A stretch of 13,108 nt of DNA, from NCBI GenBank assembly GCA_900550025.1, contig URQP01000078.1, positions 1-13,108 of the forward strand. Direction: 5' to 3'. Both the position numbers and the translations under genes were made by a program. The notes below the pieces were generated by a model. That model worked only from the letters and a program-made list of their open reading frames with translations, searched no databases and was not told the DNA's origin. Positions 35-12,781 of this stretch are shown here, piece after piece. The first letter of the stretch is position 1. Every line of letters begins with the position of its first letter. This DNA comes from an uncultured Porphyromonadaceae bacterium (lineage in GTDB: Bacteria; Bacteroidota; Bacteroidia; Bacteroidales; Muribaculaceae).

Positions 35-1495
35 ATGAAAAAGCTGAATTTCTTTATTCCGTTTGTTAATGAGGCACAAGTGAAGAACACAATCGGTGGT
101 TTGACACAGTGCGAGTTGGTTACTAAAATCTGTCTTCTTGCCGGCGACGACGCTCAAGGTTCCGTTGAAGGTTGCGAGAAGATAGCCGTCAAAGGTATTA
201 AGAGCACCGATACTATGAAAAAGATAGCCGCTGCGGCTGATGGCGACTATATAGTATTATATACGAAGTACAACACTCTCGACTTTGGAATGTTTGCCAT
301 CGAGCGTATGGTTAGGATTGCCGATGATTCGGATGCCGGTATGGTATATGCCGACCATTATAACGTAGTAGGTGGAAATCGCACCAATGCTCCTGTAATC
401 GATTATCAGGCGGGTAGTCTGCGCGATGATTTCGATTTCGGTTCTGTGCTGATGTTTAACGCAGCCGCTTTCAAAGATGCGGTTGCCCGTATGGACAAGG
501 ATTATGAGTTTGCCGGTCTTTATGATTTGCGTTTGAAAATTTCGCAGAAAGCGGAAATCGTCCATATTAATGAATATTTGTATTCTGATGTTGAACTTGA
601 TACGCGCAAGAGCGGTGAAAAGATTTTCGATTATGTCGACCCGAAGAACCGTGGCGTGCAGATTGAAATGGAAGATGCTTGTACTGCCCATCTGAAGGCT
701 GTCGGCGGTTATCTTGAGCCTAATTTCAAGAAAATAGAGTTCAGTGCCGGCAATTTCGAATATGAGGCTTCGGTCATAATTCCGGTACGCAACCGTATCC
801 GCACAATCCGTGACGCAATTAAGTCGGTGTTATGCCAAAAGGCCGATTTCAAGTTCAATCTTATTGTTATTGACAACCATTCGACAGACGGCACGACAGA
901 AGCCATCGACGAGTTTAAGGGCGATGACCGTCTGATTCATCTTATTCCAGAACGTGACGATCTTGGCATCGGCGGTTGCTGGAATCTTGGAGTGCATCAT
1001 CCCAAGTGCGGTAAATTTGCCGTGCAGCTCGACAGTGATGACGTTTACAAGGACGAGAATACTCTGACCACGATGGTGCGTGCTTTCTATGAGCAGAATT
1101 GCGCTATGGTTGTCGGTACTTATATGATGACCGACTTCAATATGAACATGATAGCGCCGGGTATCATCGACCATAAGGAATGGACACCTGAAAACGGACG
1201 TAACAATGCGTTGCGCATCAATGGTCTTGGCGCTCCGCGCGCTTTCTATACACCGGTGTTGCGTGAGGTGAAAGTGCCTAATACAAGCTATGGCGAGGAT
1301 TATGCGCTTGGGCTGAATTTCTCCCGTGAATATCAGATAGGCCGTGTTTATGACGTGGTATATTTGTGCCGTCGCTGGGACGACAATTCTGACGCGTCGC
1401 TCGACGTGATGAAGATGAATGCCCACAATCTTTATAAGGACCGTATCCGCACGTGGGAGCTTAAGGCACGTATCGCATTCAATAAGAACAAATAA
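35..1495 (+). CDS. Two-domain GT2-family glycosyltransferase, first gene of the operon
   Basis: This 486-residue protein has no signal peptide or membrane segment, so it is probably cytosolic. The C-terminal half is a GT-A fold of the GT2 type. It opens with VIIPVRNR (247-254), has the nucleotide-binding strand and loop VIDNHSTDG (278-286), a DXD-like metal/sugar-nucleotide site in LDSDD (332-336), and a later GED motif typical of the acceptor side. The N-terminal half (about 1-230) looks like a second, degenerate GT-A domain: it begins with a hydrophobic strand (FFIPF) and has a YADHY segment where an active domain would carry its acidic metal site. Donor and acceptor cannot be read from sequence. 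The stop is one base before the start of the DUF4922 gene, so the two are surely co-translated. I infer that it works with that protein on a sugar nucleotide. Only 34 A/T-rich bases lie upstream, with no clear promoter. The GT2 call is firm; the role is not. Confidence 0.87.
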   Translation: MKKLNFFIPFVNEAQVKNTIGGLTQCELVTKICLLAGDDAQGSVEGCEKIAVKGIKSTDTMKKIAAAADGDYIVLYTKYNTLDFGMFAIERMVRIADDSDAGMVYADHYNVVGGNRTNAPVIDYQAGSLRDDFDFGSVLMFNAAAFKDAVARMDKDYEFAGLYDLRLKISQKAEIVHINEYLYSDVELDTRKSGEKIFDYVDPKNRGVQIEMEDACTAHLKAVGGYLEPNFKKIEFSAGNFEYEASVIIPVRNRIRTIRDAIKSVLCQKADFKFNLIVIDNHSTDGTTEAIDEFKGDDRLIHLIPERDDLGIGGCWNLGVHHPKCGKFAVQLDSDDVYKDENTLTTMVRAFYEQNCAMVVGTYMMTDFNMNMIAPGIIDHKEWTPENGRNNALRINGLGAPRAFYTPVLREVKVPNTSYGEDYALGLNFSREYQIGRVYDVVYLCRRWDDNSDASLDVMKMNAHNLYKDRIRTWELKARIAFNKNK

Positions 1496-1496
1496 G

Positions 1497-2432
1497 ATGC
1501 AAAATATAGATAAGGCGATTGTGCAGGCATTCTTTGACCGTCAGGTAAGTGAATGGGATACTGCAAAAAATAATTACGAAGCATTGCAGCGTGTCAAGGT
1601 GAAAGAGTTCCGGCTTGGCAATGCGTTGGTGAAAGTGCAGTTCAATCCGGCGCGTATTGTTTCGTCGGCTGCCAAGGTGGATGCCAAGTCGTTGAAAGAA
1701 CGTAAATGTTTTCTTTGCGAGGAAAACCGTCCTGCGGTGCAGGATGGTTTGGCATGGGGCGATTATACGATATTGGTAAATCCTTTCCCTATATTCCCGA
1801 AGCATCTTACCATACCGGCAAACGGGCATATCCCTCAGCTGATATCAGGCAGGATTAAGGATATGATGCGCTTGTCGAGCGTGTTGTGCGACTATGTAGT
1901 GTTCTACAATGGCCCGAAGTGCGGGGCTTCCGCCCCCGACCATATGCACTTTCAGGCGGGTAACACCGGGTTTATGCCGGTTGCCGATTGGATGCGCAAT
2001 GCAAGGAAACGCAACGTCTTGCTTTCCGGAGATGCCCGGCTTAGTGTGGTGGAGGAAGGCATGCCGCAATGTTGTTTTATAATAGAAGCCTCTTCGGTAG
2101 ATGGCGGCAGCCGTATGTTCGACCGTCTTTATGAGGCAATTGACATTCCGGAGGGTGAAAGCGAGCCGATGCTCAATGTGCTGTGTCTCTACTATGCAGG
2201 GGTGTGGAACATTGTTGTTTTCCCGCGTAAGAAGCATCGTCCGGATTGCTACTTCAAGGAGGGCGACGGCAATATATTGATTAGCCCGGCCTCTGTCGAC
2301 ATGGGTGGTGTGTTCATCACTCCTTTGGAAAAAGATTTTGATAAAATTACAGCTTCCGACCTTCAGACTATTTATGATGAAGTGTGCATAGGAAAGGATG
2401 ACGCGGAGGCTATTTGTAGTAAAATTAATTAA
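1497..2432 (+). CDS. DUF4922 protein, HIT/GalT-like nucleotidyltransferase or phosphorylase
   Basis: This is a 311-residue soluble protein. The open frame runs upstream to 1419, but that part overlaps the preceding glycosyltransferase. The ATG at 1497, one base after its stop, is the sensible start (MQNIDKA). Visible motifs are a CFLC pair (71-74) that resembles the zinc half-site of GalT-like enzymes, a NPFPIFPKHLTIP segment typical of Ap4A phosphorylase and GalT relatives, and DHMHFQ (148-153). In the GalT/phosphorylase branch of the histidine-triad superfamily the motif is HxHxQ, where the second His (here H151) is the nucleotidylated nucleophile; HIT hydrolases have HxHxH instead. Q153 therefore points to a transferase or phosphorylase. 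A later FPRKKHRP segment also fits this fold. The likely reaction is phosphorolysis or nucleotidyl transfer on a sugar nucleotide or dinucleoside polyphosphate, but the substrate is unknown. The tight coupling to a glycosyltransferase favours a sugar nucleotide. Confidence 0.85.
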   Translation: MQNIDKAIVQAFFDRQVSEWDTAKNNYEALQRVKVKEFRLGNALVKVQFNPARIVSSAAKVDAKSLKERKCFLCEENRPAVQDGLAWGDYTILVNPFPIFPKHLTIPANGHIPQLISGRIKDMMRLSSVLCDYVVFYNGPKCGASAPDHMHFQAGNTGFMPVADWMRNARKRNVLLSGDARLSVVEEGMPQCCFIIEASSVDGGSRMFDRLYEAIDIPEGESEPMLNVLCLYYAGVWNIVVFPRKKHRPDCYFKEGDGNILISPASVDMGGVFITPLEKDFDKITASDLQTIYDEVCIGKDDAEAICSKIN

Positions 2433-2440
2433 GTCAGATT

Positions 2441-3763
2441 ATGCAGCAACCAGTAGTAAAGGTCGGTATAATGAATGAACCGGCGATTAGATTCAGATTT
2501 TCTGCTGATTACCGCCAAGGTGATAAGATATTCTCAGGTGAACAGCACGCTGAAGTGTGCGATGGAAAAGTGAAATGGGATGGCGGCGTTTACGACACGG
2601 TGGAATTCACACCGTGCGATATGGCAAATTCTTATTTCGAGCTGTATGATGTGACTATTGGCGTTAATTTCCATTGGGAAAGGAAGGAGAACCAGTCGTT
2701 CCGCGGCTCGTTGCGCCTGATTGTGGAGAACGGCAAGCTGACGGCTGTCAACATATTGCCGGTAGAGGAGTATCTGCTTAGTGTGATTTCCTCGGAGATG
2801 AGCGCGACAGCCTCATTGGAGTTGCTGAAGGCGCATGCGGTGATTTCGCGCAGTTGGCTTCTTTCCCAAATAGAAAAGAACAAGGAGCTGACGGCTTCGG
2901 ATACCAAATACGAGCCGTCTACGGTTACCGATACGGAGATTGTGCGTTGGTACGACCGTGAGGACCATGTGAATTTCGACGTTTGCGCCGACGACCATTG
3001 CCAGCGTTATCAGGGCATAACCCGTGAATCTACGCAGAAAGTGCGTGAAGCTATCGGCGCTACTTTCGGACAGGTTCTTATGTATGATGGCAAGTTGTGC
3101 GACGCACGGTTTTCCAAGTCGTGCGGCGGTGTGTTCGAGCAATTCGAGAATTGTTGGGAGCCTAAGCATTACGACTATCTTGTGGCTCGCCGTGACAGTG
3201 CTTCCCCGATGGATTTCCCGGACCTTACGGTAGAGGAGAACGCAAGGAAGTGGATTCTTGAAGCTCCGGAGGCTTTCTGCAACACTACGGATAAGCAGAT
3301 ACTGTCGCAGGTGCTCAACAGCTACGATCAGGAAACGGTGGATTTCTACCGCTGGAAAGTGGAATACACGCAGCAGGAATTGTCGGAATTGATTAAGAGC
3401 CGCTCAGGCATCGACTATGGCGGTATCGTGGATTTGGTGCCGGTTGCGCGCGGTACTTCCGGACGGCTTTACCGTTTGAAGATTGTCGGAACGAAGCGCA
3501 CTATGATTATAGGAAAAGAATTGGAGATACGTCGCACATTGTCGCCGTCGCATCTCTATAGCTCCGCATTTGTAGTGGAGAAGGAGGGCAGTCGTGACGG
3601 CCTTCCCGAGAAATTCATAATAAAGGGAGCCGGTTGGGGGCATGGCGTAGGGCTTTGCCAGATTGGTGCTGCCGTCATGGGGGAGAAAGGCTATGATTAT
3701 CGCCAGATTCTCCAACATTATTTCATCAACTCCGAAATAACGGAATTATATTCAAAAGACTAA
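2441..3763 (+). CDS. SpoIID/LytB-domain protein (lytic transglycosylase-like), no signal peptide
   Basis: This 440-residue protein spans a SpoIID domain. The signature VEEYLLSVISSEM (108-120) matches the SpoIID/LytB core, and E119 sits where the family has its catalytic Glu. The C-terminal hallmark GWGHGVGLCQIGA starts at G398. H176, C182, H186 and C187 form an HxxxxxCxxxHC pattern close to the zinc site reported for Clostridioides difficile SpoIID. SpoIID enzymes cleave glycan strands stripped of stem peptides, forming 1,6-anhydroMurNAc ends. Here the N-terminus (MQQPVVKVGIMNEP) is not a signal peptide. An in-frame stop at 2426-2428 rules out a longer start, and there is no membrane helix. 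Nine cysteines also fit the cytosol better than the periplasm. It may therefore act on imported fragments, or be binding-only or repurposed. A later start at 2471 is possible but would not change this. The family call is firm; location and activity are inferred. Confidence 0.85.
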   Translation: MQQPVVKVGIMNEPAIRFRFSADYRQGDKIFSGEQHAEVCDGKVKWDGGVYDTVEFTPCDMANSYFELYDVTIGVNFHWERKENQSFRGSLRLIVENGKLTAVNILPVEEYLLSVISSEMSATASLELLKAHAVISRSWLLSQIEKNKELTASDTKYEPSTVTDTEIVRWYDREDHVNFDVCADDHCQRYQGITRESTQKVREAIGATFGQVLMYDGKLCDARFSKSCGGVFEQFENCWEPKHYDYLVARRDSASPMDFPDLTVEENARKWILEAPEAFCNTTDKQILSQVLNSYDQETVDFYRWKVEYTQQELSELIKSRSGIDYGGIVDLVPVARGTSGRLYRLKIVGTKRTMIIGKELEIRRTLSPSHLYSSAFVVEKEGSRDGLPEKFIIKGAGWGHGVGLCQIGAAVMGEKGYDYRQILQHYFINSEITELYSKD

Positions 3764-3766
3764 GCA

Positions 3767-5116
3767 ATGAGTAAAGTAACGACACGCAATCCGTGGGCAT
3801 GGATTCCCACGTTATATTTTGCACAAGGCATACCGTTCATCTTCATCAATATGGTGACGATGGTGCTGTTCACCCAGCTTGGCATGTCGGAAACAGACGC
3901 CGCCCTTTATACGGGCTGGCTTTATCTCCCTTGGGTAATCAAACCGTTCTGGGGGCCTATTGTCGATATTCTTAAGACAAAGCGTTGGTGGACGGTGGTA
4001 ATGCAAATCTGTGTGGCTGTAGGGCTTGCAGGCATAGCTTTCACGCTGCCGTTGCCTGAAAAGGAAGAGATAGCGGCCGGTATGCCTGTAAGCGCGTTTG
4101 CCGTGTGCCTGTTCTTCTATTTCATTACGGCATTCTGTTCGGCTACCCACGACATAGCTTCCGACGGTTTCTATATGCTCGCCCTTAACACTAACCAGCA
4201 GAGTATGTTCGTAGGCATCCGTTCTACGTTCTACCGCTGCGCCAATGTGTTCGGACAGGGCGGTCTGGTGATGATTGCCGGCGCTTTGGAAGCTTATTTC
4301 GGCACGGCTGCCGCTTGGAAATGGACAGTGGCAAGTTGCGCCGCTTTCTTTGCTTTGGTTTCAATCTGGCACATGTTCATTCTTCCTGTGCCGGTTGCCG
4401 ACAAGGCTGTGGGCGGCGAGGTTGAGCAGCAGGGCATTAAAGGCATTCTCAAGGGTTTTGTCGGTTCTTTCGTCACGTTTTTCAAGAAGAAGCATGTGGT
4501 GTTGGCAATGCTCTTTATGTTGCTATACCGTTTGCCGGAGGCTCAGGTGGTGAAACTCTGCCAGCCTTTCCTTCTTGCGTCGCGCGAAGCCGGCGGTCTG
4601 GGCATGACCCAGATGGAAGTGGGGTTTGCGTATGGAACGCTTGCCATAATCGGATTGACAGTCGGCGGTATCATCGGCGGTATCTGTGCTTCGCGCGGAG
4701 GCTTGCGTAAATGGATTTGGCCTATGGCGCTTGCCACGTCGCTCAACTGTGTGGCCTATATCATCCTTTCTACGGTGCAGCCTGATTACAGCACTTTGAC
4801 TGGCAAGATAATCACTTTCTCTGCGATTATTCTCGAACAGTTCGCCTACGGATTCGGTTTCACTGCATTTATGCTCTTTATGATGTATTTTGCGGAAGGT
4901 CCGTATAAGACTTCGCACTATGCCATCTGCACGGCATTCATGGCATTGGGCATGATGCTTCCGGGTATGGCCGCGGGTTGGATTAAGGAAGTGATGTTGG
5001 GCAATTCTTACATTAACTTCTTCTTGTGGGTGCTTGGTTGTAACCTCGCGACATGGCTTGTAACGGCTCTTGTGCGCAGGCATATCGACCCGGCTTATGG
5101 CGCAAAACAAAATTAA
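3767..5116 (+). CDS. ampG: AmpG-like MFS muropeptide permease
   Basis: This is a 449-residue inner-membrane transporter of the major facilitator superfamily, with about twelve hydrophobic segments. The AmpG/acetyl-CoA-transporter-like signature is clear: an N-terminal AQGIPF helix start, the YTGWLYLPWVIKPFWGPIVD loop after the second segment, and ATHDIASDGFY (126-136), whose D129 and D133 match the conserved acidic residues of the AmpG 'DIAxD' motif. AmpG carries GlcNAc-anhydroMurNAc and its peptides from periplasm to cytosol by proton symport. It starts three bases after the SpoIID-like gene and is followed by NamZ, which fits wall-fragment uptake. The family also includes other substrate specificities, and Bacteroidales often carry several paralogues, so the exact cargo (anhydro-muropeptide, plain disaccharide or MurNAc) is inferred from context. 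Confidence 0.85.
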   Translation: MSKVTTRNPWAWIPTLYFAQGIPFIFINMVTMVLFTQLGMSETDAALYTGWLYLPWVIKPFWGPIVDILKTKRWWTVVMQICVAVGLAGIAFTLPLPEKEEIAAGMPVSAFAVCLFFYFITAFCSATHDIASDGFYMLALNTNQQSMFVGIRSTFYRCANVFGQGGLVMIAGALEAYFGTAAAWKWTVASCAAFFALVSIWHMFILPVPVADKAVGGEVEQQGIKGILKGFVGSFVTFFKKKHVVLAMLFMLLYRLPEAQVVKLCQPFLLASREAGGLGMTQMEVGFAYGTLAIIGLTVGGIIGGICASRGGLRKWIWPMALATSLNCVAYIILSTVQPDYSTLTGKIITFSAIILEQFAYGFGFTAFMLFMMYFAEGPYKTSHYAICTAFMALGMMLPGMAAGWIKEVMLGNSYINFFLWVLGCNLATWLVTALVRRHIDPAYGAKQN

Positions 5117-5127: not shown

Positions 5128-6360
5128 ATGAGAAAATCAATATTGGCATTGTCCCTTGGCGTGGCGGCTTTGGCTGCCACGGCCGGGGTTAAGCCGGGCG
5201 TGGAGGTGCTCCGCGACAACGGCTTCCAGCAATTGGACGGAAAGAAAGTGGGATTGATAACCAATCCGACTGGAGTGGACAATAACCTGAAGTCGACCAT
5301 CGACATTCTTCACGATGCGCCGAATGTGGAACTTGTGGCTTTGTTCGCTCCGGAGCATGGTGTCCGTGGCGATGTGCATGCCGGTGACGAATTTGAAAAC
5401 ACGGTCGATCCGGCTACCGGCGTGCAGGTATACTCCATTTATGGCAAGACAAAGAAGCCGACTCCTGAAATGCTTAAAGGCATTGATGCCTTGGTTTACG
5501 ACATTCAGGACATCGGTTGCCGCTCGTTCACGTTTGTCAGCACTCTTGGCATGGCGTTGGAGGCTTGTGCGGAAAACGACATAGAGCTGGTAGTGCTCGA
5601 CCGTCCTAACCCGCTTGGCGGAAACCGTGTGGAAGGAAATCTTGTGGAGGACGGCTTTTATTCGTTTGTAAGCCAGTTCCCGATACCTTATCTTTATGGC
5701 ATGACTCCTGGCGAGACTGCCCGCTATCTTAACGGCGAAGGTCTTGTTGCCGGGGGAAAGAAGGCTAAGTTGACTGTTGTGCCGATGGAAGGTTGGACGC
5801 GCGACATGACTTTCGACAAGACAGGTATGCCGTGGATTCTTCCTTCTCCGCATATTCCGCAGCCGGTAACCTCTTATTATTATCCGGCTACCGGAATCCT
5901 CGGCGAGTTGTATTTCGTGTCGATAGGCGTGGGCTATACGTTGCCTTTCCAGTTGATATGCGCCGATTGGATTGACGCTGACAAATTCTCGGCGAATATG
6001 AACGCCTTGAACTTGCCGGGCGTGAAATGCCGTCCGATACATATCAAGCCGTTCTATTCTACCGGGAAAGGCGAGAATTTGCAGGGAATACAATTCTATA
6101 TCGACGACATTCCGGAATCGAGCATCACGTTGCTGCAATTCTATGCTATGCAGGTGCTTGCCGAAATGTATCCTGACAAGCGTATTTTCGATGTCGCTAC
6201 CGACAAGTCGCGTTTCAATATGTTCGACAAGGTGTGCGGTACAGACCAGATACGTTTGCGTTTCTCGAAGAATTATAAAGTGAGCGACATAATTGACTAT
6301 TGGAACAAAGATGTAGAGCCGTTCAAGGCTAAGTCAAGTAAATACTATCTATATAAGTAA
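5128..6360 (+). CDS. namZ: NamZ-type exo-beta-N-acetylmuramidase (DUF1343, GH171), secreted
   Basis: This 410-residue precursor starts MRKSILALSLG and has a short, cleavable-looking signal peptide ending near AATAG (about residue 20). It has no lipobox Cys, so it is probably periplasmic. The open frame extends upstream to 5053, but that part overlaps the permease gene. ATGs at 5122 and 5128 are both possible; spacing from AAAGG favours 5128. The DUF1343 signatures are all present: FAPEHGVRG with E76 as the likely catalytic Glu, YDIQDIGCRS (124-133), VLDRPNPLGG (156-165), and the PSPHIP block. Bacillus subtilis YbbC/NamZ, the founding member, removes MurNAc from the non-reducing ends of peptidoglycan fragments. 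The neighbouring MurK-like kinase and MurQ use exactly that product, which strongly supports the assignment. The length is normal for the family, and nothing looks truncated. Confidence 0.9.
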   Translation: MRKSILALSLGVAALAATAGVKPGVEVLRDNGFQQLDGKKVGLITNPTGVDNNLKSTIDILHDAPNVELVALFAPEHGVRGDVHAGDEFENTVDPATGVQVYSIYGKTKKPTPEMLKGIDALVYDIQDIGCRSFTFVSTLGMALEACAENDIELVVLDRPNPLGGNRVEGNLVEDGFYSFVSQFPIPYLYGMTPGETARYLNGEGLVAGGKKAKLTVVPMEGWTRDMTFDKTGMPWILPSPHIPQPVTSYYYPATGILGELYFVSIGVGYTLPFQLICADWIDADKFSANMNALNLPGVKCRPIHIKPFYSTGKGENLQGIQFYIDDIPESSITLLQFYAMQVLAEMYPDKRIFDVATDKSRFNMFDKVCGTDQIRLRFSKNYKVSDIIDYWNKDVEPFKAKSSKYYLYK

Positions 6361-6369
6361 GAGCAACTA

Positions 6370-9162
6370 ATGATGGATAAAGCGTATCAATCCTACCTCG
6401 AGCGTATCAGGGAGTTTGTCCCGGAGGAGAGGATCTACACCGACGATTTACGTCGGTTGGCATGGGGAACTGATGCCGGTTTCTACCGACTTATACCTAA
6501 GATTGTTGTAAGGTCGAAGTCGGAGGAAGAAGTGGCGCGCCTTCTTGCCATTGCAGATGATTTGAGTTTGCCGGTAACTTTCCGTGCTGCCGGAACAAGT
6601 CTTTCAGGACAGGCAATCAGTGATTCAATCTTGATTGTTGCCGGGAAGAACTGGGAAAAATACGAGGTGTCGCCCGATGCTTCTACAATCAGGCTGCAGC
6701 CCGGTATTGTCGGCGAACGGGTCAACCAGATATTACGTCCATACGGCCGTATTTTTACGCCCGACCCGGCTTCGAAAAATTCGGCTATGGTAGGCGGCAT
6801 AATCATGAACAATGCTTCCGGTATGAATTGCGGCACACATGCCAACAGCGACCGTATGTTGCGCTCTGTGCGCATTGTCCTTGCCGACGGCACAGTGCTC
6901 GATACCGGTGACAACGCGAGCAAGGCGGAGTTCCGCCGTACTCATCCTGATTTTATCCGCAGGATAGAGGAGCTGCGCGACAAGGTGAATGCCGACAGTC
7001 GTCTTGCCGACAAGATACGCTATAAATATTCCATCAAGAATGTGACAGGTCTGAACATCCTTCCTTTTGTATCGTTTACTGATCCGTTCGACATAATTAC
7101 CCATTTGGTTGTAGGGTCGGAGGGTACGTTGGCATTCCTTTCGGAAGCGGTGATGGCGACAGGGCACTTGTTCAAGCATTCTGCGAGCGCGATGCTCTAT
7201 TTCTCCGATTTGCAGGAGGCATGCCGCGCTGTGGTGGAATTGAAGGTAGGGCCGGTGTTCAGCGCGGAGATGCTTGACAAGAAATCGCTTTCGTCGGTCA
7301 ACGACGCTACGGGCGAGGGGCTTACCGCTTTGCTTGTCGAGACAAAAGCCGACACCAAGGAGCAATTGGAGGAGAATATCGAGGTTATTAAAAAGATATT
7401 GGAGGGATATAATCTATATACTCCCATCCATTTCACCGATGTGCCGGAGGAGTACTCCAAATATTGGGCTATCCGTTCCGGTATTTTCCCGTCGGTGGGC
7501 GGTACCCGTAAATTAGGCACTACGGTGCTTATCGAGGATGTGGCTTTCCATATCGAGGATTTGCCGGAGGCTACGCTCGACCTTCAGCAGATGCTCGAGC
7601 GTCATGGCTACGATGATGCCTGCATCTATGGGCATGCTTTGGAAGGCAACTATCATTTTGTCATTGCCCAATCGTTCGACACGCAGGAGGAAATCGACCG
7701 GTATAAGGCTTTGATGCTTGAAATAGAACATCTTGTGGTTGATAAATACAACGGTTCGCTGAAGGCCGAACACGGAACTGGACGCAATATGGCTCCGTTT
7801 GTCAAGGCTGAATGGGGCAGTGACGCTTATGAGATTATGAAGGCTGTCAAGCAGCTTTTCGACCCGAAAGGCTTGCTTAATCCGGGCGTGATTTTTAATG
7901 ACGACCCCGAATGCTACATAAAGGGGATGAAACCGATGCCTTTGACTAATCCTAACGTCGACCGGTGCATAGAGTGCGGCTTCTGCGAGGTGAATTGCCT
8001 TACGTGCGGTTTCTCCATGTCGTCGCGGCAGAGGATTGTCGTGCAGAGGGAAATCTCGCGCCTGAAGATGACAGGCGAGGACCCGGAGCGGCTTGCCCGT
8101 TTGGAAAAGGAGTTTAAATATCTTGGCAATGAGACGTGTGCCGGTGATGGATTGTGCAGCACTTCCTGCCCGATGAAAATCAATACCGGAGAGATGGTTC
8201 ACGACCTCCGCCGTGAGGCATTGCCTAAGACCGGCATAGGCTATAAGACCGGCGATTTTGCCGCCAATCATTTTTCTGCGGTCAAGGCTTCTTTGCGTCC
8301 GTTGCTTTCGGTAGCGTCGTTCACTCACGCCGTGATTGGTGACAAGGGTGTTGAGGTCGCCGGAAAGGCGTTGCATAAATTGGGGCTTCCGTTGTGGACT
8401 CCGGCACTGCCTAAGGCTTATTACCCGCATCGCATCGATACCGGAGCGTCGGATTTGAAAGTGGTGTATTTCCCGAGCTGCATAAACCAGACTATGGGGC
8501 TGTCGGAAAAGAATACTGTCAAAAAACCGCTTGTCGACGCTACTGTGGCGTTGATTAGAAAAGCCGGTTACGAGGTGATATTCCCGAAGAACATGAAGAA
8601 TCTGTGCTGTGGCACTATTTGGGAAAGCAAGGGCATGCCCGACATAGCCGACCGTAAGGTGGAGGAATTGGAGCAGGCTCTTATCGAGGCATCGCAGGGC
8701 GGGAAATATCCGGTGCTTTGCGACCAAAGTCCGTGCCTGCACCGTATGCGCGAGAAGATAAAGTCGCTTAAGCTGTATGAGCCGGTGGAGTTCATCTATG
8801 AATACCTTGTGCCGCGCCTTGAAATAAAGCAGACCGATGAGCCGGTGGCCATTCACCTCACTTGTTCTACCCGCCATATGGGATTGGACAAGGAATTTTT
8901 CGCGTTGGCAAGCCTTTGCTCGTCGAAGGTGCTGATTCCTGAGGAAGTGGGTTGCTGCGGTTTTGCCGGCGACAAGGGTTTCACCCATCCGGAGGTCAAC
9001 CGTTACGCTTTGCGCAAGTTGCGTCCGCAAATCGAGAAAGCCGGCATAAAGAGGGGATTCTCCAACAGCCGTACCTGCGAGGTGGGGCTGACTCTGAATG
9101 CGGGGATTCCTTACTATTCGATTGTGTACCTTGTTGATGAGTGCAGCGAGCCGAAACATTAA
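6370..9162 (+). CDS. FAD/Fe-S D-lactate dehydrogenase-like oxidoreductase (Dld-II type)
   Basis: This is a 930-residue multidomain oxidoreductase; the start is the ATG at 6370 or the adjacent one at 6373. In order: an FAD-binding PCMH domain with FRAAGTSLSGQA (71-82), an FAD-linked oxidase C-terminal domain with HGTGR (468-472), a ferredoxin-like module with C533, C536, C539 and C543 plus a second cluster with C590, C596 and C600 (CxxDGLCxxxCP), and two CCG modules. The CCG modules have CCG at 746-748 and 862-864, with partner cysteines C704 and C832. This is the layout and length of Shewanella Dld-II, a membrane-associated respiratory D-lactate dehydrogenase; the E. coli 2-hydroxyglutarate dehydrogenase YdiJ is a longer relative. 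Glycolate or D-2-hydroxyglutarate are therefore alternative substrates. D-lactate is favoured because MurQ, encoded in the same operon, releases D-lactate from MurNAc-6-P. Electrons would go through the clusters to quinone or another acceptor. The gene starts nine bases after namZ. Confidence 0.85.
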   Translation: MMDKAYQSYLERIREFVPEERIYTDDLRRLAWGTDAGFYRLIPKIVVRSKSEEEVARLLAIADDLSLPVTFRAAGTSLSGQAISDSILIVAGKNWEKYEVSPDASTIRLQPGIVGERVNQILRPYGRIFTPDPASKNSAMVGGIIMNNASGMNCGTHANSDRMLRSVRIVLADGTVLDTGDNASKAEFRRTHPDFIRRIEELRDKVNADSRLADKIRYKYSIKNVTGLNILPFVSFTDPFDIITHLVVGSEGTLAFLSEAVMATGHLFKHSASAMLYFSDLQEACRAVVELKVGPVFSAEMLDKKSLSSVNDATGEGLTALLVETKADTKEQLEENIEVIKKILEGYNLYTPIHFTDVPEEYSKYWAIRSGIFPSVGGTRKLGTTVLIEDVAFHIEDLPEATLDLQQMLERHGYDDACIYGHALEGNYHFVIAQSFDTQEEIDRYKALMLEIEHLVVDKYNGSLKAEHGTGRNMAPFVKAEWGSDAYEIMKAVKQLFDPKGLLNPGVIFNDDPECYIKGMKPMPLTNPNVDRCIECGFCEVNCLTCGFSMSSRQRIVVQREISRLKMTGEDPERLARLEKEFKYLGNETCAGDGLCSTSCPMKINTGEMVHDLRREALPKTGIGYKTGDFAANHFSAVKASLRPLLSVASFTHAVIGDKGVEVAGKALHKLGLPLWTPALPKAYYPHRIDTGASDLKVVYFPSCINQTMGLSEKNTVKKPLVDATVALIRKAGYEVIFPKNMKNLCCGTIWESKGMPDIADRKVEELEQALIEASQGGKYPVLCDQSPCLHRMREKIKSLKLYEPVEFIYEYLVPRLEIKQTDEPVAIHLTCSTRHMGLDKEFFALASLCSSKVLIPEEVGCCGFAGDKGFTHPEVNRYALRKLRPQIEKAGIKRGFSNSRTCEVGLTLNAGIPYYSIVYLVDECSEPKH

Positions 9163-9184: not shown

Positions 9185-10423
9185 ATGACAGAATCAGTTC
9201 AAATAAAAAAGCCTAAGAACCGCATACTCGCGCTCGACATATTGCGTGGTATAACGATTGCGGGTATGATTATGGTGAACAACCCCGGTTCTTGGGGACA
9301 TATTTATGCTCCGTTGGAGCATGCGAGCTGGATAGGGCTGACTCCTACCGACCTCGTGTTTCCGTTCTTTATGTTCATAATGGGTATTTCCACCTACATA
9401 TCGTTGCGCAAGTACGATTTCTCGTACTCCCATGCGACGTTGATAAAGGTGGTGCGCCGCACGATAGTGATTTTCCTTATCGGTTTGGCGATAGGTTGGT
9501 TCAGCCGGCTGTGCTACGGCCTTGCCGGCTCCGACAGCTCGTTGCCGCTATGGGGAAGGATTCTCGATGCGGCCAACAGCTTCTCCTCGATGCGCATACT
9601 CGGCGTGATGCAGCGTCTGGCGTTGTGCTATTGCTTTGTCTCGATTATCGCCATTACGGTGAAGCATAAGCTTATCCCTTACATAATAGCCGGCATACTT
9701 GTCGTTTATGGCGTGCTGTTATTGATGTTCCACGGGCTGGAATTTTCGTTGAACAACATTGTCTATGTCGTTGACCATGCGGTGTTCGGCGACGCTCACC
9801 TTTATAAGGACACGGTAAGCTCTCTTGTGGGAAGCGTGCATAGCAGTTCGGAATTCTCTGTCGATATTTATCAGCGCCAGCGGCTTCCGATTGATCCGGA
9901 AGGTCTGCTCAGCACTTTGCCGTCGATTGCGCATGTGCTTATCGGCTTCTGTTGCGGTAAGATGATTATGACGGTGAAGGAAAACGACAAGAAAGTGCAG
10001 AATTTGTTTATAATAGGCACAATTCTTACTTTTACCGGCTTTTTGCTGAGCTACGGCATGCCGATAAGCAAGAAATTGTGGACTCCGACGTTCGCGCTCG
10101 TCACTTGCGGGTTGGCGGCGAGCTTGCTTGCGTTGCTGATTTGGATAATCGACATCAAGGGCTACAAGAAATGGACGAGGTTTTTCGAGGCTTTCGGAAT
10201 CAATCCGTTGTTCATGTATGTGCTGGGCGGTGTGCTGGGCATTTTGTTCAACACCATCTCGATTGGCGGGCATTCAATCCATACATGGCTTTATTCCAAG
10301 TCATTCGTGCCGCTGTTCGGCGACCCGACGTTCGCCTCGCTTGTCTATGCGTTGGTGTTCATCGGTATTAATTGGGCTATAGGTTACATATTGTATAAAA
10401 AGAAAATATATATAAAGATATGA
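9185..10423 (+). CDS. DUF5009/HGSNAT-like multispan membrane protein, candidate MurT-type MurNAc transporter
   Basis: This 412-residue inner-membrane protein has about ten hydrophobic segments. The signature LEHASWIGLTPTDLVFPFF (44-62) is that of the heparan-alpha-glucosaminide N-acetyltransferase/NagX family (COG4299, DUF5009). H46 aligns with the His reported as catalytic in human HGSNAT, and D56 with the following conserved Asp. HGSNAT moves acetyl from cytosolic acetyl-CoA to a terminal glucosamine on the other side of the membrane. By position, directly before a sugar kinase and murQ, the gene matches murT of the Tannerella forsythia murT-murK-murQ cluster, where MurT is described as an inner-membrane MurNAc transporter. 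I recall that gene order but cannot confirm homology here. The stop overlaps the kinase start as ATGA (10420-10423), indicating translational coupling. It may transport MurNAc, acetylate an amino sugar, or do both. Confidence 0.82.
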   Translation: MTESVQIKKPKNRILALDILRGITIAGMIMVNNPGSWGHIYAPLEHASWIGLTPTDLVFPFFMFIMGISTYISLRKYDFSYSHATLIKVVRRTIVIFLIGLAIGWFSRLCYGLAGSDSSLPLWGRILDAANSFSSMRILGVMQRLALCYCFVSIIAITVKHKLIPYIIAGILVVYGVLLLMFHGLEFSLNNIVYVVDHAVFGDAHLYKDTVSSLVGSVHSSSEFSVDIYQRQRLPIDPEGLLSTLPSIAHVLIGFCCGKMIMTVKENDKKVQNLFIIGTILTFTGFLLSYGMPISKKLWTPTFALVTCGLAASLLALLIWIIDIKGYKKWTRFFEAFGINPLFMYVLGGVLGILFNTISIGGHSIHTWLYSKSFVPLFGDPTFASLVYALVFIGINWAIGYILYKKKIYIKI

Positions 10424-11262
10424 TTTTAATTGCTGATTGTGGGTCAACAAAGATTGACTGGTGCTTGATTGAAAACGGTAAGGTTGCCAAGCAGGTTTTT
10501 ACTTCAGGAATCAATGCATTGCTGATGAGTGAGGAACAGATTCGTCAGACTATTGCCGACGAGCTTGTCCCGGAAATCAAAGGGTATGAAATCGGCAGCG
10601 TGTATTACTACGGTGCTGGATGCCTGTTCGACGACATTTGCGCGAATGTGCGCCGCGCGATAGCCGCCAACATACCTTCGGCCAAGACCATTGAGGTGGA
10701 TACTGACTTGTTGGCTGCCGCGCGTGCGCTGTGCGGTAAGAATCCCGGCATAGCCTGCATCATGGGCACAGGGTCCAACTCCTGCTATTACGACGGTGTG
10801 AGAATTGTCGACAATGTGTCGCCGCTCGGATATATTCTTGGCGATGAGGGCAGTGGCGCCGTGCTTGGCAAGTTGCTCGTGGGCGATGTGCTGAAAAATC
10901 AGTTGCCGGCCGCATTGTGTGAGAAATTCTTGAAAAAGTATGACCTTGACCGTCAGAAAATCATTGAGGGAGTGTATAAGAAGCCTGCGGCAAACCGCTT
11001 CCTCGCTTCTTTGTCGCCGTTCTTGATTGAAAACATCGAGGAACCTGCCGTACACCGTCTGGTGCTCAACGCTTTCAAGGCGTTCTTCGTGCGCAATATC
11101 GAGAACTACGAAGGCTACAAGACGATGCCCGTGTCGTTTGTCGGCTCTGTTGCCTATTACTATCGCGATGTGCTTGAGGAGGCCGCAAGCTCTCTTGGCA
11201 TAAAGATTGGGACTGTTATAAAGAGTCCGATGGAAGGGTTGATTAAATATCATTCAAATTAA
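10420..11262 (+). CDS. murK: BadF/BadG-family amino-sugar kinase (MurK-like MurNAc/GlcNAc kinase)
   Basis: This is a 280-residue cytosolic ASKHA-fold kinase. The phosphate-1 motif DCGSTKIDW starts at D6. The phosphate-2 region has MGTGSNS (115-121), followed by the hallmark GDEGSG (141-146) found in N-acetylglucosamine kinases of the BadF/BadG/BcrA/BcrD family. It would transfer phosphate from ATP to the C6 hydroxyl of MurNAc, and possibly GlcNAc, giving the substrate of MurQ. In Tannerella forsythia the kinase at this position (MurK) is reported to act on both sugars. This step replaces the phosphorylation done by the MurP phosphotransferase system in E. coli, and no PTS component is seen here. 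The start overlaps the membrane-protein stop by four bases, and murQ follows after 16 bases. Kinase family is firm; MurNAc specificity rests on the neighbours. Confidence 0.85.
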   Translation: MILIADCGSTKIDWCLIENGKVAKQVFTSGINALLMSEEQIRQTIADELVPEIKGYEIGSVYYYGAGCLFDDICANVRRAIAANIPSAKTIEVDTDLLAAARALCGKNPGIACIMGTGSNSCYYDGVRIVDNVSPLGYILGDEGSGAVLGKLLVGDVLKNQLPAALCEKFLKKYDLDRQKIIEGVYKKPAANRFLASLSPFLIENIEEPAVHRLVLNAFKAFFVRNIENYEGYKTMPVSFVGSVAYYYRDVLEEAASSLGIKIGTVIKSPMEGLIKYHSN

Positions 11263-11278
11263 AATATTTGGTAAGTTT

Positions 11279-12100
11279 ATGGCATTTGTGAAAATTAGCG
11301 AACAACCGTCGCTGTATAATGATTTGGAGAAGAAACCGGTGCGTGAGATTCTTGAGGAAATCAACACCGAGGACCATAAGGTGGCTGATGCCGTGCAAAA
11401 GGCGATTCCCAATATCGAGAAGCTCGTTGAGGGCATCGTGGAGCGTATGAAGAAAGGCGGGCGCATATTCTATATCGGCGCAGGCACTTCAGGCCGTCTC
11501 GGCGTGCTCGACGCTTCGGAGATACCGCCCACATTCGGCATGGACCCGAGCTGGGTGATCGGTGTGATTGCCGGTGGCGACACTGCTTTGCGCAACGCGG
11601 TGGAAAATGCCGAGGACGATACCGAGCAGGGGTGGAAGGACTTGGAGAAATTCAACATCAATTCCAAGGACACGCTTATCGGTATAGCAGCTTCGGGTAC
11701 TACGCCTTATGTTATCGGCGCATTGAAGACAGCCCGCGCCAACGGACTTCTTACGGCTGCCATCACAAGTAATCCCGACGCTCCTGTTTCCGAGGCTGCG
11801 GAGATTCCTATCGAGATGATTGTAGGTCCGGAATATGTGACCGGAAGCTCGCGTATGAAGTCGGGTACAGGGCAGAAGATGATATGCAACATGATTACCA
11901 CTTCTGTGATGATCAAGATGGGACGTGTGAAAGGCAACAAGATGGTGAACATGCAGCTGACGAATGCCAAGTTGGTGGACCGCGGCTCGCGGATGGTGGC
12001 TGAGGAGCTCGGTTTGCCCTACGACGAGGCGAAACGTCTGCTTCTTTTCCACGGTTCGGTTAAGGTGGCTGTCGACGCTTATCGTTCGAGTCATCATTAA
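11279..12100 (+). CDS. murQ: N-acetylmuramic acid 6-phosphate etherase MurQ
   Basis: This 273-residue SIS-domain enzyme cleaves the D-lactyl ether of MurNAc-6-P, giving GlcNAc-6-P and D-lactate in the cytosol. The signature GAGTSGRLGVLDASEIPP (67-84) is almost the textbook MurQ motif, and E81 corresponds to the Glu of the DASE segment implicated in catalysis. AVENAEDD contains E109, the likely second active-site Glu. The sugar-phosphate loop AASGTTP (137-143) and GSSRMKSGTG (189-198) are intact. It is somewhat shorter than the E. coli enzyme (298 residues), with the difference mainly at the C-terminal helical end; all catalytic segments are present. It lies between the MurK-like kinase and an SGNH hydrolase. 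The D-lactate product explains the dehydrogenase gene three genes upstream. Confidence 0.95.
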   Translation: MAFVKISEQPSLYNDLEKKPVREILEEINTEDHKVADAVQKAIPNIEKLVEGIVERMKKGGRIFYIGAGTSGRLGVLDASEIPPTFGMDPSWVIGVIAGGDTALRNAVENAEDDTEQGWKDLEKFNINSKDTLIGIAASGTTPYVIGALKTARANGLLTAAITSNPDAPVSEAAEIPIEMIVGPEYVTGSSRMKSGTGQKMICNMITTSVMIKMGRVKGNKMVNMQLTNAKLVDRGSRMVAEELGLPYDEAKRLLLFHGSVKVAVDAYRSSHH

Positions 12101-12112
12101 TAATCTGTGGGT

Positions 12113-12781
12113 ATGAGGCGTTTTTTGATTTTGTCGGCATTGGTATTGTCGGGTGTTTGTGGCATGGGGGCGCAGGAAAAGTACGAGTACAACGAGTTCT
12201 ACTATCAACGCTCGTCGCATTTTGAGATGCTTCCTGTCGGCAGCGACGATATTGTGTTTCTTGGCGACAGTCAGACAAACGGTTGCGAGTGGCACGAGAT
12301 GCTCGACAATCCCAACGTGAAGAACCGCGGAATATCGTCCGACGTGATTCAGGGATTCGCCGACCGCGTGCAGCCGATAATCGACGGCCGTCCGGCGAAG
12401 CTGTTCATCCTTGGCGGCGTGAACGACATTTCCCACGACCTTACGCCCGACAGCATTGCCACGGCGATGCGCAACCTGATTGTGAAGGTGCGCCGGGGTA
12501 CTCCGGCGACTAAGGTCTATCTTCAAAGCCTCCTTCCTATCGACAACAGTTTCCGCCGCTACAAGGCGATGACCGGCAAGGAAAGCGTGATTGTGGAGAC
12601 CAATAAGTTGCTGAAGAAAGTGGCTGAGGAAACCGGCGCTACGTGGATCGACCTTTATTCGCGTATGGTTGATCCGGCGACGGGCAATATGCGCAAGGGA
12701 CTGACCAACGACGGCCTCCACCTGCTTGGCGCGGGCTACGCCGTATGGCGTGACGCCGTCCTTCCCTACGTCGAGGAATAA
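12113..12781 (+). CDS. Secreted SGNH/GDSL-family hydrolase, possible O-acetylesterase
   Basis: This is a 222-residue precursor. A GTG at 12107 would add two residues, but the ATG at 12113 gives a clean signal peptide (MRRFLILSALVLSG to about GAQ, residue 21). C16 is preceded by Val, so there is no lipobox; periplasmic or secreted is most likely. SGNH blocks are complete: GDS (51-53) with nucleophile S53, the Gly block in NRGISSD, GxND (102-105), and DGLH (200-203) giving the Asp-His pair. The family covers lipases, acyl-thioesterases and carbohydrate O-acetylesterases. The mature protein is small and the operon handles MurNAc, so removal of 6-O-acetyl groups from MurNAc is an attractive role, since acetylated C6 could not be phosphorylated. 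The substrate is inferred only from context. It is the last gene before the terminator. Confidence 0.85.
   Translation: MRRFLILSALVLSGVCGMGAQEKYEYNEFYYQRSSHFEMLPVGSDDIVFLGDSQTNGCEWHEMLDNPNVKNRGISSDVIQGFADRVQPIIDGRPAKLFILGGVNDISHDLTPDSIATAMRNLIVKVRRGTPATKVYLQSLLPIDNSFRRYKAMTGKESVIVETNKLLKKVAEETGATWIDLYSRMVDPATGNMRKGLTNDGLHLLGAGYAVWRDAVLPYVEE

Follow-up and report, generated by a model that had tools for sequence, protein, structure and literature searches.

Three adjacent genes that open a 13,108-nucleotide stretch of DNA from an uncultured Porphyromonadaceae bacterium of the Muribaculaceae lineage (NCBI GenBank assembly GCA_900550025.1, contig URQP01000078.1; the whole stretch is called the window here) probably form an undescribed machine that handles salvaged cell-wall sugars in the cytosol. 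These genes, referred to as the trio, encode a GT2 glycosyltransferase, a DUF4922 protein and a SpoIID-domain protein, and such a machine is proposed because they are fused in some relatives and accompany the wall-sugar importer AmpG. Tentatively, the trio and AmpG are read as a branch of Bacteroidota peptidoglycan recycling that runs in the cytosol and processes the peptide-free disaccharides of N-acetylglucosamine (GlcNAc) with N-acetylmuramic acid (MurNAc) or anhydroMurNAc (anhMurNAc) that AmpG imports. The role in this pathway is the firmer half of the reading, and the direction of the glycosyltransferase and the nucleotide involved are guesses. A first-pass annotation of the window had already proposed a cytosolic wall-salvage module; a cytosolic, salvage-linked set built around a nucleotide enzyme of the phosphorylase type is retained from that proposal, and the partner has changed to AmpG.

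Co-occurrence with AmpG

Two samples were surveyed, one of 61 related genomes and one of 296 Bacteroidota genomes. Among the related genomes, DUF4922, GT2 and strong AmpG matches are distributed identically: 43 genomes have all three and the remaining 18 have none of them (weak AmpG matches in G042 and G050 were left out), and when 24 of these genomes, each from another family, are considered, all three are found in the same 8. In the larger sample DUF4922 is present in 41 genomes, three weak matches being left out; GT2 and the SpoIID orthologue (E < 1e-100) are each found in 40 of the 41 and in none of the others, and AmpG is found in all 41. The genes are retained even where they are scattered, as in G245, in which hundreds of kilobases separate DUF4922, GT2 and SpoIID from one another and a different contig carries AmpG.

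The arrangement of the genes was followed in 43 genome loci and at least 80 named loci, two sets that partly overlap and were counted separately, leaving out loci without 2.6 kilobases (kb) upstream and 4.8 kb downstream (3/43 and 20/80). DUF4922 has GT2, SpoIID and AmpG close by in 34/40 genome loci and in 54/60 of the named loci among the matches listed, so that the trio lies mostly beside salvage genes, where the first-pass annotation had allowed for its being mostly apart from them. The link to wall salvage sought by that annotation in a survey with namZ and murQ is present, but the trio's steady and discriminating partner is AmpG rather than these two genes. MurQ was considered as an obligate partner and rejected; it is above its cut-off in 26/43 trio genomes, which makes it optional, and in 2/18 of the others, and lies near the locus in 17/33. 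NamZ is near the locus in 23/33 and present in 42/43 trio genomes, and does not discriminate because it is also found in 14/18 genomes that lack the trio.

Fusions and cellular location

Among the 123 loci (43 and at least 80, overlapping), 14 encode DUF4922-SpoIID fusions, three GT2-DUF4922 fusions and two a triple fusion of GT2, DUF4922 and SpoIID, which reaches about 1266 amino acids (aa). A quick tree of 108 rows, in which long branches were flagged and which is itself unsure, requires a minimum of 10 changes of fused state. A DUF4922-SpoIID fusion used as query retrieved 31 triple forms of 1234-1299 aa and two GT2-DUF4922 forms among the 120 public proteins listed. The triple protein as query returned at least 120 proteins of 1266 aa that are nearly identical, and this search therefore adds number, not breadth. 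It could be argued that the trio is three unrelated genes that happen to share an operon, as genes in bacterial operons are often closely spaced, but repeated fusion and the continued co-occurrence of genes that have become scattered make this hardly credible, and the fusions largely refute it.

None of the fused proteins (0/40, counted per domain) reaches a threshold of 2.0 in a simple hydropathy measure of export signals, applied to both locus sets in place of a trained predictor. The same threshold is reached by 4/96 SpoIID, 2/104 DUF4922 and 10/117 GT2 proteins, and by 90/100 of NamZ, in agreement with the earlier description of the trio as free of signal peptides. Among the trio proteins, the highest-scoring N-termini seem to reflect starts set too far upstream or the opening strand of the fold. 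As SpoIID is fused to GT2 and to a nucleotide enzyme in proteins that show no export signal, it should act in the cytosol, in contrast to the SpoIID proteins described in the literature consulted (PMC6221140, PMC6635528).

A possible route for imported disaccharides

In Tannerella forsythia, AmpG was concluded to import GlcNAc-MurNAc and GlcNAc-anhMurNAc, mainly peptide-free, and growth of an ampG mutant on either disaccharide was completely inhibited (PMC7670621). Some cytosolic activity must therefore split these disaccharides. No AnmK was predicted in the T. forsythia genome, and how anhMurNAc is handled without it was stated to be yet to be explored (PMC7670621).

AnmK was found in 3/43 trio genomes versus 12/18 of the others (Fisher p 3e-6), a contrast that persists with one genome per family (1/8 versus 12/16, p 0.008) and with the least complete genomes removed (p 0.02). 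For the GH3 family, 13 trio genomes gave 69 matches, fragments included; 30 of the 69 were inspected at their loci, of which 29 have a hydrophobic N-terminus and one (L166) is ambiguous. In the four fully inspected trio genomes (G009, G052, G058 and G012) no cytosolic GH3 protein or NagZ was seen, since all five of their GH3 proteins look exported or anchored.

The sequence of events favoured here, by inference, begins with SpoIID, which would open the 1,6-anhydro ring or trim denuded oligomers; a peptide-free substrate fits, because SpoIID acts on denuded glycan. GT2, running in reverse, would then take GlcNAc off the disaccharide and place it on a nucleoside diphosphate (NDP), and DUF4922 would phosphorolyse the resulting NDP-GlcNAc to GlcNAc-1-phosphate, freeing the NDP for the next round. 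The released MurNAc would pass to MurK and MurQ or, in T. forsythia, presumably to AmgK and MurU. In its most explicit form, which we consider distinctly unlikely, the trio would be a trifunctional, nucleotide-cycled disaccharide phosphorylase that converts GlcNAc-(anh)MurNAc and phosphate to GlcNAc-1-phosphate and MurNAc without adenosine triphosphate. Here SpoIID would reopen the ring of GlcNAc-anhMurNAc as a cytosolic lytic transglycosylase run backward, GT2, also backward, would lift GlcNAc onto uridine diphosphate (UDP) or another NDP, and DUF4922 would split the NDP-GlcNAc with phosphate and return the NDP. If true, such an enzyme would replace NagZ, AnmK and a GlcNAc kinase.

The strongest rival has GT2 running forward and extending a cytosolic glycan or an imported muro-fragment by a sugar, with DUF4922 feeding or clearing the nucleotide sugar and SpoIID trimming the product. 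GT2 enzymes normally run in this direction, the best whole-length structural match of the window's GT2 is a polymerase, the K4 chondroitin polymerase K4CP (2z86, 15% identity), and its catalytic domain is structurally near the UDP-GlcNAc users TarP, TarS and PmHS2. Nevertheless, a phosphorylase next to a forward glycosyltransferase would destroy its donor, the trio's steady companion AmpG is an importer, and no gene for polymer export or a lipid carrier is among the named neighbours, although no dedicated search was made for one. This biosynthetic role is considered unlikely, if a serious possibility.

Several observations weigh against the recycling role preferred here. Unless it is coupled, a reverse reaction that starts at a beta-GlcNAc bond runs uphill, although phosphorolysis could pull such a transfer, and the nearest fold to DUF4922 is Apa2, which is not a sugar-nucleotide phosphorylase. 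The AnmK contrast is corrected for relatedness only by taking one genome per family, and the glucosaminidase survey was confined to GH3 in trio genomes, with GH20, GH84 and other such families outside it. AmpG occurs without the trio in 49/296 genomes. If the weak DUF4922 matches (G088, G197 and G221; E > 1e-6, two of them above the Pfam cut-off) are retained, GT2 accompanies DUF4922 in 40/44 genomes and AmpG in 41/44, as neither was seen in any of these three. G284 lacks a SpoIID orthologue and G217 a GT2 match (five candidates per genome were scored). The locus carries no SpoIID gene in L136 (Parabacteroides gordonii), L104, L111, L084 and L135, or in L050, L058, L063 and L068, in whose genomes the gene lies elsewhere; conversely, SpoIID-family matches are found in 7/18 relatives without the trio, that of G019 having the size and score of a trio protein. 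DUF4922 is above its cut-off outside the phylum, in Synechococcus elongatus and Lactococcus lactis, where GT2 and AmpG were not sought. Finally, no report of a tested trio substrate was found in the available excerpts of the open-licence PMC literature.

Taken together, the distribution shared with AmpG, the triple fusions and the near-absence of AnmK alongside the trio indicate a real and testable variant of peptidoglycan recycling. The named loci include those of gut Bacteroides and Prevotella. Since, in the genomes sampled, DUF4922 is never found without AmpG, weak matches aside, and rarely with AnmK, the trio offers named and purifiable candidates for the handling of wall sugars after their import by AmpG in Bacteroidota, some of them single proteins of about 1266 aa. 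The recycling role would also suggest what a large DUF family does, and would provide a case of a SpoIID domain that works inside the cell.

The DUF4922 protein

The HxHxQ motif of the DUF4922 protein (Table 1), read in the first-pass annotation as DHMHFQ, is confirmed as D148-H149-M-H151-F-Q153 (positions 1938-1955). All 27 aligned sequences, the window protein among them, match PF16269. The invariant residues C71, C74, H111 and H149 are a probable GalT-type zinc site, and H151 is the probable nucleophile. Structure comparison shows that the protein has the whole fold of the yeast diadenosine tetraphosphate (Ap4A) phosphorylase Apa2 (4i5t), which is both its best fold match and its best PDB sequence match, at 16% identity; a profile scan gave no NCBIfam match. 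PF26216, which we take to be named after GDPGP1, is annotated on many of the relatives' proteins.

DUF4922 might thus be an Ap4A phosphorylase, or remove stray NDP-hexoses, its link to wall genes being regulatory or a matter of housekeeping. The match to Apa2, the occurrence of DUF4922 in S. elongatus and L. lactis, and the assignment of plant GDP-hexose phosphorylase relatives to the DUF4922 superfamily (PMC9871823, PMC11047344) are consistent with this idea. On the other hand, the window protein stays under the cut-off of the Ap4A_phos_N profile (PF19327; 21.2 versus 23.1 bits), which is exceeded by the P. gordonii protein of L136 (36.4 bits), and neither the fusions with GT2 and SpoIID nor the co-occurrence with GT2 in 43/43 and 40/41 genomes would be expected of a housekeeping Ap4A enzyme. 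Such a role therefore appears improbable. A GalT-like role, in which DUF4922 would swap the nucleotide between UDP-GlcNAc and MurNAc-1-phosphate and so make UDP-MurNAc, returning salvaged MurNAc to anabolism, is considered very improbable.

The GT2 and SpoIID proteins

The GT2 protein is a tandem GT-A enzyme with an N-terminal domain (residues ~1-236) and a catalytic domain (~245-486), modelled at a confidence score (pLDDT) of 91. The structural matches to this model cover mainly residues 241-486, so that the N-terminal domain is barely probed; this domain lacks its first ~56 residues in 8/24 aligned relatives. D333, D335 and D336 (DxD) are kept in 24/24, and the equally invariant E421-D422 is presumably the general base motif of an inverting GT-A enzyme.

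The SpoIID protein exceeds the cut-off of TIGR02669 (175.6 versus 83.3 bits) and remains under that of TIGR02870, the equivalog for stage II sporulation protein D (129.8 versus 234.75 bits). In Clostridioides difficile SpoIID, E101 is catalytic and H134, C140, H145 and C146 are zinc ligands (PMC6221140), and the substrates of SpoIID are denuded glycans (PMC6221140, PMC6635528). The candidate ligands of the window protein are spaced as H-x5-C-x3-HC, versus H-x5-C-x4-HC in C. difficile, and were matched by this spacing as HMMER left the residues unaligned.

The locus and its neighbours

Table 1. Genes and sequence motifs of the window; residue numbers are those of the encoded proteins.
Feature	Position	Strand	Basis
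GT2 glycosyltransferase, 486 aa	35..1495	+	ATG 35 to stop; PF00535 75.7 bits (cut-off 23.3)
GT2 DSDD metal/nucleotide motif, D333-D336	1031..1042	+	invariant in 24/24 aligned sequences
GT2 E421-D422	1295..1300	+	invariant in 24/24
DUF4922 protein, 311 aa, Ap4A-phosphorylase/GalT-type fold	1497..2432	+	PF16269 218.4 bits (cut-off 23.6)
DUF4922 C71-x2-C74	1707..1718	+	with H111 and H149, all four invariant in 27/27
DUF4922 H149-x-H151-x-Q153 nucleotidyl-transfer motif	1941..1955	+	invariant in 27/27
SpoIID/LytB-domain protein, 440 aa	2441..3763	+	PF08486 89.3 bits (cut-off 23)
SpoIID E119, counterpart of C. difficile E101	2795..2797	+	alignment with 5i1t; invariant in 21/21
SpoIID H176, C182, H186, C187, candidate zinc ligands	2966..3001	+	invariant in 21/21; matched by spacing
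AmpG-like muropeptide/disaccharide importer	3767..5116	+	TIGR00901 140.9 bits, under model cut-off 350
NamZ exo-N-acetylmuramidase, signal peptide, periplasmic	5128..6360	+	Pfam and reading of the open reading frame
MurT-like membrane protein, NagX/HGSNAT type	9185..10423	+	family profile matches
MurK-like sugar kinase	10420..11262	+	weak NagK match, 28.8 bits; position as in T. forsythia
MurQ, MurNAc-6-phosphate etherase, optional neighbour	11279..12100	+	NF003915 374.6 bits

The open reading frames and Pfam matches agree with the earlier description of three closely packed genes followed by ampG and namZ, with gaps of one base between GT2 and DUF4922 and eight between DUF4922 and SpoIID; a DUF4922 start at 1419 was rejected as over-extended, and ATG 1497 was taken. 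The closest named loci, among the matches listed, are from Muribaculaceae metagenome-assembled genomes. The same annotation had the trio leading the operon, which does not hold, as it comes first merely because the window begins there. In relatives (L031, L038, L040, L044 and others) the trio is preceded, about 3 kb before GT2, by genes for a protein of ~1000 aa and another MurK-like kinase; the latter is comparable to the kinase K1058, which precedes the cluster in T. forsythia (PMC10465942). The ~1000-aa protein carries Golvesin_C in all three cases scanned. An amidase function was considered for it, but Amidase_3 reaches 20.5 bits against a cut-off of 27 in Bacteroides fragilis and has no match in T. 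forsythia.

The composition of the locus varies. AmpG has two forms: that of the window, of ~450 aa, and one of ~600-670 aa with an insertion near window residue 180 (L031, L033, L037, L041 and others). In L048 (5124-5984) an AmiA-like N-acetylmuramoyl-L-alanine amidase replaces GT2 ahead of DUF4922-SpoIID-AmpG, and GT2 lies elsewhere in that genome. The first genes of the B. fragilis cluster (L101:681-3339) encode a further NamZ-like protein and a sodium:solute symporter, and a NamZ-like gene is also found at the cluster start in other Bacteroides loci.

Between namZ and murT, the window encodes a 930-aa flavin adenine dinucleotide (FAD) oxidase and Fe-S protein of the GlcD/D-2-hydroxyacid dehydrogenase type (6370-9162), which was not found at the corresponding place in T. 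forsythia and may oxidise the D-lactate released by MurQ. A GDSL-type esterase after murQ (12107-12781), possibly a sugar or peptidoglycan O-acetyl esterase, is retained in several relatives. A published description places MurT in the sodium symporter superfamily, as a transporter of MurNAc (PMC5790795); instead, the window protein and that of T. forsythia (L133:15113-16279, identified by position) match NagX/HGSNAT acyltransferase families (NF046061, 119-120 bits, cut-off 480).

The first-pass annotation knew of no described pathway with this gene set. The set has in fact been published, as the T. forsythia operon Tanf_08345-08385, a single transcript driven by GppX (PMC5388701, PMC7670621) that begins ahead of the ~1000-aa gene (PMC5388701). 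The excerpts of open-licence PMC papers found, those on this operon included, ascribe no function to the trio. In the published names, Tanf_08350 and Tanf_08355 are both "gtf" and Tanf_08360 is "lytB" (PMC5388701, PMC7670621). The implied presence of two glycosyltransferase genes is rejected, as the second "gtf" is the DUF4922 gene, whose product is 49% identical to that of the window. What is new here is AmpG as the partner, the fusions of every step, the Apa2-like fold of DUF4922 and the near-exclusion with AnmK; the gene set was already known.

Comparison with known systems

The recycling pathway of the Escherichia coli type (AmpG, NagZ, AmpD, AnmK and MurQ) shares import by AmpG and, in many genomes, the MurQ end step with the system described here. 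In contrast, AnmK was not found in 40/43 trio genomes and a cytosolic GH3 protein in none of the four inspected. The SpoIID proteins of C. difficile and Bacillus share the catalytic glutamate and the zinc-ligand motif with the trio protein, which differs from them in having no export signal, in being part of a multi-enzyme fusion in relatives and in falling under the sporulation SpoIID cut-off. K4CP shares the tandem GT-A architecture of GT2, and both domains align, but with a root-mean-square deviation of 22 over 393 residues, which indicates that the two domains are arranged otherwise, and the GT2 N-terminal domain is truncated in 8/24 relatives. A bifunctional polymerase of the K4CP kind would have two complete GT-A domains, which GT2 may have. 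Unlike DUF4922, Apa2 lacks a CxxC in the stretch aligned with C71/C74; a further difference is the fusion of DUF4922 to GT2 and SpoIID in relatives. Arabidopsis ADP-glucose phosphorylase (2h39) and the GDP-hexose phosphorylases, plant VTC2/GGP and animal GDPGP1, may also be counted among the closest known systems. Similar in gene order is the T. forsythia operon (L133, NZ_JUET01000082), which runs from the ~1000-aa protein through GT2, DUF4922, SpoIID, ampG, ybbC/namZ, murT and murK to murQ; the window shares this order apart from one insertion, the FAD/Fe-S oxidase between namZ and murT, and, unlike T. forsythia, has a GDSL gene after murQ.

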